A stretch of DNA of 64,000 bases, from the NCBI GenBank assembly GCA_003281225.1, contig QCCP01000001.1:62001-126000 (forward strand), written 5' to 3'. Position numbers and translations under genes: made by a program. Shown one piece after another: positions 15,666 to 19,837 of the stretch (position 1 is its first letter; each line of letters starts with the position of its first letter). A model generated the notes under the pieces. It did no database searches and was not told the origin of the DNA. It was given only the letters and a program-made list of their open reading frames with translations. The stretch comes from Prochlorococcus sp. AG-347-L20 (GTDB lineage Bacteria; Cyanobacteriota; Cyanobacteriia; PCC-6307; Cyanobiaceae).

Positions 15666-15875
15666 AATAATTCAAATTCTCATATAAATAATCTGATGAA
15701 AATAATTAATAAATTAACTAAATTTTATTTATTAATGGATATCAAGTATTATTTAAAAAAAATAAAGAAAAGATTATTTTTCTTTATATCAATAAGTAAT
15801 TGAAAGCTTATACCCTTATATTTGAAATTGAAGTTCTTGGAAAATTACATAATTAAATGCGTAAAAAACTTAAAT

Positions 15876-15905
15876 AAGGCGACACCCAGATTCGAACAGG
15901 GGATA
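15876..15905 (-). repeat. tRNA-Cys 3'-end remnant (candidate attachment-site copy)
   Basis: Thirty bases match 18494-18523 of the intact tRNA-Cys at 28 of 30 positions. They cover the discriminator base, the 3' acceptor strand, the complete T arm with its TTCGAA core, and part of the variable region. Mismatches are at 15882 and 15898. Homology stops exactly where the rest of the tRNA would begin. A copied 3' tRNA end in the same orientation is the usual scar of tRNA-targeted integration. Confidence 0.75.
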
Positions 15906-15953
15906 TTCTTTTTTGAACTAAGCTATTACTAGCTTTTTATGAGTTTTATCTCC

Positions 15954-15966
15954 AACTTGCTGTCTA
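15954..15966 (+). repeat. 13-bp direct repeat, left copy
   Basis: AACTTGCTGTCTA, identical to 18385-18397. It lies about 50 bp inside the left tRNA remnant. Possible recombinase arm-type binding site. Confidence 0.5.
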
Positions 15967-16219
15967 TAAATTTCACAATTAATAACTTAGTTTGATAATT
16001 CTTTCATACAAAATTTTCCTCTGGACAACAAGTGAATAAGTAGAAAATACATAACTAAAAATCAGTATAAATTTAGTCCTGATCGACTTTTAAAAGTTCA
16101 AAATGTTTAAAGTCTCAAGTTTAGATAAGTAAAAAGAGAAAACGAAAAAACTATTTCTATTTATCTAGAAAAATAGTAATATGATTTAGTATTAGATCGA
16201 ATTTTTTTAAAAGTTTATT

Positions 16220-18298
16220 TTGCAAAAATTAATTGAGAATAAGTTGATAAGATTATGTTTCTTAAAAAGGTATTCAAAAAACCTTTTAATGAGTTGTTTT
16301 TTATTTTCTTTTTTTATTTTTGATTTATCCAAAGCACAGAGTAATAATTCAAATTTCGAAAAAATAGAACAACCTCAATTGGATGATTTGAAATCTAAAA
16401 AAGAGTCGGAAGATCTGACTTTTGATTCAGAAGCAAAATTTTTTAATATTAAAAATATAAACAAGATTGGGATTGACTATATCAAATCAAAAAAAGATTT
16501 AGAAGATTACATAATAGACACTGGTGATGCTTTATTTATTCAATTCGAGAATAAGCCAAGAGGTTTTAATTCCCTTAACCAAGAAAATCAAAATGAATTG
16601 GACTCAAATGATTTATCTTACTTAGAACCAAAAAATGATTTAAGTAATTACATATTAGGTGAAGGTGATGTTATTAATATCAACTTTAAAAATATTCCTA
16701 AAGGAGATCCTGAATTACTAAAAAAAACTACTAAAAATATACCTTTAGATACTGAATATTTAACCAAAGTAAGTGATCTACAAAACTATCTTCTAGATGA
16801 AGGTGATAGTATTTTTATAAAATTTGAAAAGACTCCAGAACTTAATCGGACGGTAACACTAGATAAACTAGGTGAGGTTTTTCTTTCAAGAATTGAAGAT
16901 ACATATGTAAGAGGTTTAACAATTTATCAACTTAAAAAAATATTAGAAGAACGTTATGAAGAATTTTTAATAGATCCCGAAATTGAAGTTCGAATTGTTA
17001 AATATAGATTTATTAATTCTGGGGATTATACAATTAATCAGCTAGGAGAAATTTTTGTTCCGAGAGCCAAAAATTTATATGTAAAAGGTTTAAAAATACG
17101 AGAATTGGAAAAACTTTTGGAAGAAAAATATAGCGAATTTGGTCTTTTTGCTGATGTTGAAATCAGTATCAAAGAATTTAAATTCATAGGATCAGGAATC
17201 TATAATGTTGATCTAGAGGGTGAAATCTTACTTCCCAGAATAAAAGAGACTTATGTGAGAGGATTAACACCTAGTGAACTCTCCCAAATACTCCAAAAAA
17301 AGTACACAGAATTTAACATTAATGCTGAAACGACTATCAAAATAGCAAAATTTAAAAAACTTAGAATACTTATTGGAGGTGAAGTAAGGTCTCCTGGTGT
17401 ATACAATTTTCCTGCTTTTACAGCACTTGAATTTAAAAATATAGTGGATGAAGTTGATGAACAGGGCAATCAAATAACTATTTTTGATAGTGATCAAAAA
17501 ATATTAAATAAAGATCAAATGAAGATCGATCAAAGCGAATCAAATAAAAATTTAACTACAGAAATGAACAAAGATTTGATTGTTGATTATCAAGATAATT
17601 CTAAAAATCAGATTTTAGATAATGCTATAAGTAATAATATAAACGAAAAATCAAATTTTCAAATAAAAACACCATCAGAAAATTTCACTACTATTTCTAA
17701 TGTAATTAGAAAAGCAGGAGGAATAACTTCTAAAACTGATTTATCAAGTATCGAAATTATAAGAGACGTTCCTCTTGGAAAAGGAGGAGGACAAAAAAGA
17801 GCAGTTATTGACTTTACTTCTTTTGTAGATCAAAGTGATCCTACTAACGATATTAGATTATTTGATGGAGATAGAATATTTTTACCAAAGCTCGCGTCAG
17901 CCTCACCAGATCTTCTCCCAAAATCAATCCTAAGCGGTCTTTCTCCAAGATTCATAACAGTAGATATTTTTGGAAGAGTCGAAAGTCCAGGAACTGTAAA
18001 ATTACCTTTAGAAGCTGCATTATCAGATGCAATTGATTTGACTGGACCAATAAAACCTTTATCAGGAAAAATTGTTTTGATAAGATATAACCGCGATGGA
18101 ACTATTTTGAAGAAAAATGTTTCTTATTCTGCTAGAGCAATAAGAGGTTCGAAAAGGAATCCTTTTATAAAACAAGGAGATTTAATATCTGTTAAAAATA
18201 GTATTTTAGGAAAAACTACAGGCGTGATCAAAGAAATTACAGCTCCGTTCGTTGGTATTTATTCAACTAAAGAAATAATAGAAGGTTTTAGTGACTAG
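16220..18298 (+). CDS. polysaccharide export protein (Wza-like) with triplicated N-terminal modules
   Basis: Likely outer-membrane or periplasmic polysaccharide export protein. A hydrophobic signal segment (residues 24-40, ending LSKAQ) suggests secretion. Three short modules at about 93-112, 139-160 and 186-205 share L-x2-Y-I-L-x-E-G-D-x-I-x-I-x-F. Three longer modules at about 206-266, 267-322 and 323-378 share GEI-x-LPR-x4-YVRGL. A first SLBB-like start (RILIGGEVRSPGVY, 382) is followed by an Asn/Asp-rich linker (405-485) and further SLBB-like domains (490-560, 568-660). The TTG at 16220 gives the longest frame; ATG at 16289 is equally plausible, since it starts just before the signal segment. 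It stands alone, with no Wzc or glycosyltransferase neighbours. Confidence 0.8.
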   Translation: MQKLIENKLIRLCFLKRYSKNLLMSCFLFSFFIFDLSKAQSNNSNFEKIEQPQLDDLKSKKESEDLTFDSEAKFFNIKNINKIGIDYIKSKKDLEDYIIDTGDALFIQFENKPRGFNSLNQENQNELDSNDLSYLEPKNDLSNYILGEGDVININFKNIPKGDPELLKKTTKNIPLDTEYLTKVSDLQNYLLDEGDSIFIKFEKTPELNRTVTLDKLGEVFLSRIEDTYVRGLTIYQLKKILEERYEEFLIDPEIEVRIVKYRFINSGDYTINQLGEIFVPRAKNLYVKGLKIRELEKLLEEKYSEFGLFADVEISIKEFKFIGSGIYNVDLEGEILLPRIKETYVRGLTPSELSQILQKKYTEFNINAETTIKIAKFKKLRILIGGEVRSPGVYNFPAFTALEFKNIVDEVDEQGNQITIFDSDQKILNKDQMKIDQSESNKNLTTEMNKDLIVDYQDNSKNQILDNAISNNINEKSNFQIKTPSENFTTISNVIRKAGGITSKTDLSSIEIIRDVPLGKGGGQKRAVIDFTSFVDQSDPTNDIRLFDGDRIFLPKLASASPDLLPKSILSGLSPRFITVDIFGRVESPGTVKLPLEAALSDAIDLTGPIKPLSGKIVLIRYNRDGTILKKNVSYSARAIRGSKRNPFIKQGDLISVKNSILGKTTGVIKEITAPFVGIYSTKEIIEGFSD

Positions 18299-18333
18299 TT
18301 ATAAAAATTATCTTTTTAAACCCGATTAGCGCG

Positions 18334-18350
18334 ATTTCTTAGAAAGAAAT
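18334..18350. terminator. possible hairpin after the export gene
   Basis: ATTTCTT and AAGAAAT form a 7-bp stem with a 3-base loop, 36 bp after the stop codon at 18298. No T-run follows, so function as an intrinsic terminator is doubtful. Confidence 0.25.
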
Positions 18351-18384
18351 AGGATAATAGTATCAGGGTATTTAAGGTTTGATA

Positions 18385-18407
18385 AACTTGCTGTCTACTT
18401 GCTGTCT
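18385..18407 (+). repeat. tandem direct repeat, right copies
   Basis: Two adjacent copies of ACTTGCTGTCT (18386-18396 and 18397-18407). The first, extended to AACTTGCTGTCTA, matches the left copy at 15954-15966. They lie about 90 bp from the tRNA-Cys 3' end on the island side. Confidence 0.55.
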
Positions 18408-18494
18408 GCATAATTTTATTAACGATGTATAATCGATTTTCAAAACTTACTGTGCTGGAGGGGATTTCAGTGAAATTGTTTTCAAAATTGAAAA

Positions 18495-18565
18495 AGGCGG
18501 CACCCAGATTCGAACTGGGGATAAAGGATTTGCAATCCTCTGCCTTACCACTTGGCCATGCCGCC
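18495..18565 (-). tRNA. trnC: tRNA-Cys (GCA)
   Basis: A full 71-nt cloverleaf on the minus strand: acceptor GGCGGCA paired to TGCCGCC, U73 discriminator typical of Cys, anticodon GCA in a loop flanked by GGATT/AATCC, and T-loop TTCGAAT. CCA is not encoded. It lies antisense to the region just upstream of the LpxB-like gene, and its 3' end is duplicated at 15876-15905. Confidence 0.97.
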
Positions 18566-18607
18566 GAAAAAGATTCGCTTGAGTCTTTTTATGATCTTAA
18601 CAGTAAG

Positions 18608-19837
18608 GTGTCTCATTCTTTATTATTAATATGCAATGGTCATGGAGAAGATGTAATCGCATCGGAAATAATAAAAAGATTACTAAAAAAAATAAAAAAT
18701 AAAAATATTGAAGTTTTGCCGTTAGTAGGAAATGGGGATGTATTTAATTCCATAAAATCAAGTAATTTTCGTAAAATAGGATATTTAAAACAGCTACCTA
18801 GTGGAGGTTTTAGTAATCAAAGTCTGAAGGGATTTGTGCTTGATTTGTTTGCAGGATTTTTAATCGATAATCTAAGAAATTTTCTACTCGTAAAACAGAA
18901 GTCAAAACATAACTGCAAAATTATCGCAGTTGGCGACTTCCTGCCATTACTTTACGCTTGGAGTTCAGAATGCGAATTTAGTTTCATTGGAACTCCCAAA
19001 AGTGATCATACTTGGAGTAGTGGGCCAGGTTGGGATTTAAGCGATTTTTATCATAAGTTGAAAGGTTCTGAATGGGATCCATGGGAAATGTTTTTAATGA
19101 AATCTCCAAGATGTAAAAATATAATTATGAGAGATAAAATTACAGCTAATAATTTGAATAAAAAAAATATTGATGCAAAATACTTGGGTAATCCAATGAT
19201 GGATTTTGTTAATGCAACAAACGAGAAGATATCAAATATTATTTCTTTTAAAAGGATTATTTTATTAGTTGGAAGTAGATACCCTGAAGCTCTTAAAAAT
19301 CTTGATAATTTTCTTAATTGTTTGAAAGATTTTGAGTTATCAAAGGATTTGGTAATACTTTTGCCTTTAAGCATTAATGCGAGTGTGATTCAAATTCAAA
19401 GTTATTTAAATAAATATGGTTTTATAAAACAGAGTAAAGTTAAATTTCTAATTGATGAAGATTCAGTATGGAAAAAAAAAGATCAATATGTAGTGATTGG
19501 AAAAGGTAAATTCAATTCATGGGCTAATATGGCAGAAGTTGGCTTGTCTAATGCAGGAACTGCTACAGAGCAAATTGCTGGCCTTGGAATTCCATCTCTT
19601 TCTCTTCCCGGACCTGGTCCACAATTTACAAAATCATTTGCAAAAAGGCAATCAAGATTATTGGGAGGTAGTGTTTTAGTTTGCGATAATAAAAAAATTC
19701 TTTTAAAACGTTTAAGTTTACTTCTGAAAAGAAAAGTTGATAGGTTAGAACAAACAAAAATTGGAAAAAAAAGAATGGGGGAATCCGGAGCAAGTAAGAA
19801 AATCGTAGATTCCATAAACCTTCATTTGTTATCTTAG
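18608..19837 (+). CDS. lipid-A-disaccharide-synthase-related glycosyltransferase
   Basis: A cyanobacterial LpxB-related protein of unknown substrate, probably a glycosyltransferase. Visible features are the N-terminal LLICNGHGEDVIASEII, a central KYLGNPMMDFVN, and donor-binding-like AEVGLSNAGTATEQIAGLGIPSLSLPGPGPQFT. The frame stays open upstream to 18425, but that part is antisense tRNA-Cys and cannot be protein. GTG at 18608 is the first in-frame start after the tRNA, immediately before the conserved sequence, giving 409 residues. Any promoter must lie within or beside the tRNA gene. Confidence 0.82.
   Translation: MSHSLLLICNGHGEDVIASEIIKRLLKKIKNKNIEVLPLVGNGDVFNSIKSSNFRKIGYLKQLPSGGFSNQSLKGFVLDLFAGFLIDNLRNFLLVKQKSKHNCKIIAVGDFLPLLYAWSSECEFSFIGTPKSDHTWSSGPGWDLSDFYHKLKGSEWDPWEMFLMKSPRCKNIIMRDKITANNLNKKNIDAKYLGNPMMDFVNATNEKISNIISFKRIILLVGSRYPEALKNLDNFLNCLKDFELSKDLVILLPLSINASVIQIQSYLNKYGFIKQSKVKFLIDEDSVWKKKDQYVVIGKGKFNSWANMAEVGLSNAGTATEQIAGLGIPSLSLPGPGPQFTKSFAKRQSRLLGGSVLVCDNKKILLKRLSLLLKRKVDRLEQTKIGKKRMGESGASKKIVDSINLHLLS

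Follow-up and report, generated by a model that had tools for sequence, protein, structure and literature searches.

Tycheposons, which have reportedly been published already by Hackl et al. in 2023, are said to be tRNA-targeted cargo elements of Prochlorococcus. Cis-mobilizable elements (CIMEs), usually described beside integrative and conjugative elements (ICEs), are bounded by attachment (att) sites, carry no recombinase and depend on a helper. Here we describe a segment from a 64,000-nucleotide stretch (the window, C1:62001-126000) of a Prochlorococcus genome of 1.65 Mb. With a probability of about 0.77, we read this segment as a 2.6-kb integrative element in the 3' end of tRNA-Cys that has no recombinase of its own, is moved by a helper and repairs two genes when it inserts. 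An integrase-bearing hot spot at tRNA-Cys is on record in PMC10187409: in Prochlorococcus and Synechococcus, tRNA-Phe or tRNA-Cys has a divergent integrase (cluster158946) upstream of it, with a small serine recombinase nearby 'frequently, though not exclusively', and the authors state that PHROG models missed this integrase. The size of tycheposons is quoted as 4-200 kb in PMC10872708.

The first-pass annotation of the window had reported a direct duplication of the tRNA-Cys 3' end about 2.6 kb away, and repeat comparison confirmed it: positions 18494-18523 and 15876-15905 are identical at 28 of 30 bases in direct orientation, with a spacing of 2,618 bp, which gives the element a span of 15877-18494. 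When tRNA-Cys and the next 775 bases were compared with their own genome, matches (E<=0.001) fell at these two places only, and a chance origin of the 30-bp repeat was rejected. That annotation was also right to place a single Wza-like export gene, and no recombinase, between the copies. The one large open reading frame (ORF) between the two cores matches PF02563 Poly_export in three stretches (2.7e-31) and SLBB (8.5e-13), and the PF00589 matches of the genome lie on other contigs only. Its description of AT-rich spacers unlike the rest of the window held in part, since G+C does drop as low as 22-23% at 15.75-16.5 kb, yet it is down to 23% near 10.5 and 20.5 kb as well. Two features had gone unremarked, namely ACTTGCTGTCT repeats at both ends of the segment and an ORF that runs antisense through the tRNA.

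tRNA-Cys was sought in 146 genomes of the genus and matched in 120, some with short matches only; 111 loci with a complete tRNA-Cys gene were read, and G101, where the gene is incomplete, was left out. As had been predicted for strains lacking the segment, 56 of the 111 loci are empty, with a single tRNA 3' end and a flank 84-94% identical to the window's left flank, and alignment of the junctions shows that this flank is joined precisely to the one tRNA 3' end. In empty loci a gap of 205-224 bp (110 bp in G002) separates the tRNA from the nearest coding sequence upstream. The other 55 loci have a differing, element-type flank and varied cargo, which bears out the alternative cargo expected of a hot spot. 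G130 was counted among them, as its tRNA lies at the 'empty' distance but its flank is element-type, and G008, G015, G020, G022 and G028 were classed outside the empty set because alignment showed element-type flanks. A second copy of the tRNA 3' end (at most 9 mismatches in 28) is present in 16 of the 55 element-type loci, as one or two extra cores. The first-pass annotation had named a 30-bp copy without the segment as an argument against insertion, and no second copy is present at any of the 56 empty sites. Serial insertion would be expected to leave internal scars preceded by the end of another element, as seen in five loci (G025, G032, G083, G126 and G160). The space between the upstream gene and the tRNA is below 4 kb in 47 of 49 measured element-type loci. 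A fixed gene at a fixed site was ruled out by the 56 empty sites together with the varied cargo. Comparison of these loci shows what reads as a site-specific family, with precise empty sites, duplicated cores, alternative cargo, stacked insertions and matched end repeats.

In a tree of the upstream core genes of 101 loci, the empty and element states change 19 times, with at least 6 of these changes forced by starred branches, compared with a mean of 33.9 in shuffles, none of which was as low as the observed value. 'Empty' seems to be the usual state in the clade of the window but is not clearly ancestral, because every locus of the outlying lineages bears an element-type end when the tree is rooted at its midpoint.

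Matched repeats at the ends of an element resemble the arm sites of the phage-type attachment site (attP) of tyrosine recombinases. In the window, ACTTGCTGTCT occurs once near the left end of the element and twice in tandem near its right end, and the pattern TTGCTGTCT has 4 sites in the 64 kb against 0.46 expected. Tandem repeats of about 11 bp precede the tRNA in 35 of 55 element ends, in none of the 56 empty flanks and in 11 of 1,100 shuffles. Their sequence varies among elements (ACTTGCTGTCT, ACTTGCCGACC, ACTTTCCTACC, ACTAACCGCCC and more), and their position is steady: on the left they lie some 50 bp inward of the core, and at the other end roughly 85-125 bp separate them from the tRNA core that follows. 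Within the 16 elements that have a scar, the left and right repeats agree with a summed match of 249, and the best of 20,000 permutations reached 238; an element's own right end ranked first for 10 of the 16 and second for 3. The tandem 11-bp repeats thus look like putative attP arm sites. Two copies of ACTTGCYGNCY (one mismatch allowed) were found at 11 sites in 7 of 121 genomes, with no match to the reversed pattern, and tandem repeats also occur at tRNA-Cys in other genera (14/27 loci vs 24/1,350 shuffles). The tandem motif ACTNNCYNNCC had one match in 40 recombinase regions, near tRNA-Pro. Recombinase-bearing elements at tRNA-Ser and tRNA-Pro of the same genus have motifs of their own in a similar tandem-repeat layout, as judged by eye. 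One of these, L211, has TCCCAACAACA at both ends (by eye) and a 426-aa recombinase with a weak, below-cut-off match to Arm-DNA-bind. In L211, L205, L200 and L213, all of them recombinase-bearing regions at tRNA-Ser or tRNA-Pro, tandem repeats can be made out by eye near the element ends, together with at least one tRNA-end scar.

By its coding pattern, the stretch between the repeats and the tRNA is the 5' coding end, or leader, of an LpxB-related gene whose protein matches TIGR03492 at 3e-139. The leader is free of stops for at least 23 codons before the tRNA in 111 of 111 loci and continues in frame through the tRNA to a conserved NGHG motif in 110 of them; its other two frames contain stops in 52-55 of the 55 element ends. 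A stop codon stands immediately before the start ATG in four element ends. Entropy by codon position follows the order 3>1>2. The ratio of nonsynonymous to synonymous polymorphism (pN/pS) in the LpxB frame is 0.45 in empty flanks (pairs up to 15% divergent) and 0.44 in element ends (pairs up to 30% divergent), and 0.87-1.63 in the other frames. Each element, as its right end shows, brings a fresh tRNA 3' end and a fresh in-frame 5' end of the LpxB-related gene. Because the LpxB frame passes antisense through the tRNA, one insertion would therefore repair two overlapping genes.

The old leaders that insertions have displaced tend to decay. Sixteen were scored, that of G003 being too short, and 4 have a stop-free run shorter than 23 codons, compared with none of the 111 resident leaders (p 1.8e-4). 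Indels that shift the frame occur in 5 of 11 displaced leaders of host type and in none of the 56 empty-site leaders (p 4.8e-5); the five include that of the window, whose usual TTG start is out of frame owing to a 1-bp insertion that resident leaders lack. The resident leader of G165 has indels that sum to three bases. Across the cyanobacterial family, 30 loci were read, the best 30 of 78 genomes with a match, and in all 30 (27 from other genera) tRNA-Cys lies antisense in the same position and the frame stays open between it and the domain. The 25 loci read from other families have tRNA-Cys there in two only, both from the same genus and one with a stop in the frame, and a third such genome, G045, was judged by coordinates alone. 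On this sample, the antisense arrangement of tRNA-Cys and the LpxB-related gene is a family trait. A scan for promoter-like sites gave 14 against 16.3 in shuffles, which is chance level, and the same scan found no terminator-like sites. The features are collected in Table 1.

Table 1. Coordinates, in the window, of the tRNA-Cys element and the genes that adjoin it
Feature	Position	Strand	Basis
Displaced leader, once the 5' coding end of the LpxB-related gene and now severed from it	15801..15876	+	Alignment to resident leaders
Left core, duplicated tRNA-Cys 3' end (scar)	15877..15905	+	
Left copy of the arm-type repeat ACTTGCTGTCT, some 50 bp inward of the left core	15955..15965	+	
Cargo gene, Wza-like polysaccharide export protein, 692 aa	16220..18298	+	Three Poly_export stretches and an SLBB match
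Right arm-type tandem repeats, 2x ACTTGCTGTCT	18386..18407	+	
New leader supplied by the element, giving the LpxB-related ORF its start codon and first 23 codons	18425..18494	+	
tRNA-Cys(GCA), the target gene; the element restores its 3' end (18495-18523), which is the core	18495..18565	-	
LpxB-related ORF, antisense through tRNA-Cys	18425..19837	+	TIGR03492 from residue 67

The two PF00589 matches of the genome, one of them below the family cut-off, lie on contigs C11 (at 57781) and C2 (at 60841). The 389-aa protein has counterparts of similar length in most genomes listed, and the 396-aa protein, which is the one below the cut-off, adjoins tRNA-Ser. This recombinase-like protein (G000:C2, L071, 256-1743, next to tRNA-Ser(TGA)) is a possible resident helper. 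The first-pass annotation had proposed a search for integrases at tRNA-Cys in other strains. Among the matches listed for 121 genomes, no PF00589 lies within 50 kb of a located tRNA-Cys, and a search of 20 genomes from other genera (E<=10) placed none less than 150 kb from it on the contig that carries it. Cargo was searched in 46 element-type loci, leaving out 9 with less than 300 bp, and 33 loci gave 62 ORFs of at least 75 aa. No recombinase was found among the 27 of these that were scanned with profiles (the window's ORF and 20 others with Pfam, 6 with PHROGs). Small serine recombinases do occur beside tRNA-Cys in other genera; the genome of the window has a single relative, at C1:139703, with 42% identity and a distance of about 59 kb to tRNA-Cys. 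A search for the divergent integrase of PMC10187409 by way of its serine-recombinase neighbour did not find it. A helper of that kind is nevertheless our leading guess. A 519-aa recombinase (L438) was dropped as a candidate helper, as it adjoins what looks by eye like a phage RNA polymerase. Viral contigs had no match to the core pattern and no relative of the serine recombinase or of the Wza-like protein, and the matches in phage records were confined to some 70 bases at the query's tRNA end. A conserved protein of about 160-240 aa, with a SPLY-YW...EPYKWE motif recognised by eye, was observed near tRNA-Cys or a small serine recombinase in other genera (L330, L347, L352, L404, L405 and L408).

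Movement between hosts is best seen in G061 and G124, which are parted by a starred branch in the tree. Identity is 98.6% over the 1,902 bp of their element and 97.4% in its leader, against 88.6% and 89.7% in the two flanks. The shared tract in G061 starts within a few bases of the left core. Comparison of the two loci shows an element with no recognisable recombinase that, judging by these identities, was recently shared by two species. Short end pieces of the pairs G006/G025 and G026/G025 also exceed backbone identity.

Several observations weigh against a helper-moved element that repairs two genes. The left and right repeats agree poorly in 3 of the 16 elements (G029, G132 and G152), and 20 of the 55 element-type ends fail the tandem-repeat criterion. 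In G069 (L194) the LpxB-related frame diverges soon after tRNA-Cys, a divergence that may be a rearrangement or an assembly fault, and all 5 displaced leaders of element type remain open. No recombinase is tied to these element ends, the profile scans covered 27 of the 62 cargo ORFs, and the divergent integrase described in PMC10187409 escapes profiles of the kind used and may occur in some genomes. Of 12 chosen locus pairs, only 1 has an element whose identity far exceeds that of its flanks over the full length, the other 11 being not clearly above backbone identity. G124, moreover, is missing the left core along with about 180 bp next to it; on its left side the tract shared with G061 thus stops at a deletion edge, and this boundary is not independent proof of site-specific joining.

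Three other explanations were considered. One, which we hold to be unlikely, is that the LpxB-related protein starts elsewhere, and that the stretch from the repeats to the tRNA is conserved as a binding site for a recombinase or bending protein or encodes a separate small peptide. The TIGR03492 alignment starts only at residue 67, and in most loci GTG or TTG codons after or inside the antisense tRNA could start the protein. Purifying selection is nevertheless frame-specific and alike in empty flanks and element ends, the frame is continuous to NGHG in all but one of the loci and kept open from tRNA to domain throughout the family set, and leaders decay once displaced; from this we infer that the LpxB-related protein includes the translated leader. 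Quite improbable is a decayed tycheposon or prophage that lost its recombinase and hallmark genes in place and left cargo and scars, even though tycheposon-type recombinase elements at tRNA-Ser and tRNA-Pro have an equal scar and two-end tandem-repeat layout, a Wza-like gene adjoins such a recombinase at tRNA-Ser, and small serine recombinases adjoin tRNA-Cys in other genera. The first-pass annotation had offered both a decayed tycheposon-like island and a minimal cargo element moved in trans. The latter fits better and the former worse, because the end architecture is kept, with arm repeats at both ends, no recombinase was recognised in the scanned cargo or, among the matches listed, near the site, and G061 and G124 recently shared an element without one. 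Spread solely by homologous recombination between the conserved flanking genes, with tRNA-Cys as a passive hot spot, is very improbable. Both boundaries of the G061/G124 tract are blurred, the right one lying at the conserved tRNA and the left core and its neighbourhood being lost in G124, but duplicated cores in 16 loci and none of the empty ones, end repeats matched within each element, and flank identity that falls so far below that of the element speak against it. We infer movement in trans.

We propose that a tyrosine recombinase encoded elsewhere, on another element, a phage or the chromosome, would bind the tandem arm repeats, recombine the tRNA-end core and excise the element as a circle. 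Carried perhaps in vesicles or phage particles, as analogy would suggest, the circle would insert at tRNA-Cys of another cell, where its right end would supply a new start codon and about 24 leader codons and so restore the tRNA and the LpxB-related gene together. The cargo of the window would supply or alter a surface-polysaccharide export channel. A wider scheme is possible, but we hold it as doubtful. The loci might belong to a tRNA-based cassette system of picocyanobacteria, made up of recombinase-free cassettes with class-specific 11-bp arm addresses, served by several different helper recombinases and stacked at tRNA-Cys in an integron-like manner. Each insertion would then exchange the N terminus and upstream control region of the LpxB-related glycosyltransferase through the antisense-nested tRNA, coupling the gain of a surface gene to a switch in a resident envelope gene. 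The elements offer a candidate mechanism for the exchange of single surface genes in streamlined Prochlorococcus genomes with no recombinase recognised at the site, and their arm repeats would be addresses that could link cassettes to helper recombinases. They are also unusual in that a single att site has to restore both members of an overlapping gene pair encoded on opposite strands.

Wza-like genes are present at 7 tRNA-Cys loci, with an eighth, in G069, being a fragment at a contig end. Among elements, the length of the Wza-like protein differs (395-417, 577 and 692 aa), and the three Poly_export stretches in that of the window suggest a change in domain number. Other cargo includes TPR proteins, a T5orf172-type protein, a FeeM-type acyltransferase, cassettes of glycosyltransferase, CTP-transferase and DAHP-synthase type, and small proteins that look secreted by eye. 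In G098 (L121:5982-7819), a FeeM-type N-acyl amino acid synthase is fused to a cNMP-binding domain and stands beside an LCM-type methyltransferase. The divergent hosts G094 (L135) and G168 (L144) have relatives of the same five genes at tRNA-Cys (CTP transferase, glycosyltransferase, oxidoreductase, DAHP/NeuB-type synthase and a shikimate-dehydrogenase-like gene); this cargo is 82% identical compared with 79% for the backbone, which does not indicate recent transfer. The cargo family of the window also occurs beside tRNA-Ser in G155 and G070, and by a recombinase at tRNA-Ser in G121. In G155 (L453) and G070 (L454) a distance of 230-265 bp, in which TTTCCTACCC-type repeats are seen by eye, separates the Wza-like gene from the 3' end of tRNA-Ser(GCT), an arrangement like that of the tRNA-Cys elements but at another tRNA. 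In G121 (L205:7142-9705) a tycheposon-like recombinase directly adjoins the Wza-like gene, with small serine recombinases nearby.

Like the elements described here, the islands of PMC10187409 occupy tRNA-Cys in the same organisms and carry variable cargo. They are defined by the divergent integrase, and none was recognised at our loci; the only relative of the small serine recombinase that often accompanies it there is about 59 kb away in the window's genome. The parts of PMC10187409 that were seen describe neither recombinase-less elements nor arm repeats nor the LpxB-related leader. More broadly, no description of recombinase-less tRNA-Cys elements, matched arm repeats or double restoration was found in the open-access literature searched, as far as its texts were available.

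The window element has the two flanking att sites of a CIME and no recombination module. Unlike CIMEs, which are usually described beside ICEs, the tRNA-Cys elements make up a standing family with element-specific arm repeats and a helper that is a candidate only. The 'hitcher' elements of PMC11389934 are, like CIMEs and the elements here, att-bounded, recombinase-free and helper-dependent, a dependence that is probable in our case. The recombinase elements at tRNA-Ser and tRNA-Pro share the scar and the tandem-repeat layout of the tRNA-Cys elements. Tycheposons and the tRNA-Cys elements alike are Prochlorococcus elements that target tRNA genes and bear cargo, and the window element has integrated at a tRNA with a duplicated 3' end as tycheposons do; it encodes no tyrosine recombinase of its own, and its 2.6 kb falls below the 4-200 kb quoted in PMC10872708. 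Unlike tycheposons, it carries another arm motif and would also rebuild a second, antisense gene.

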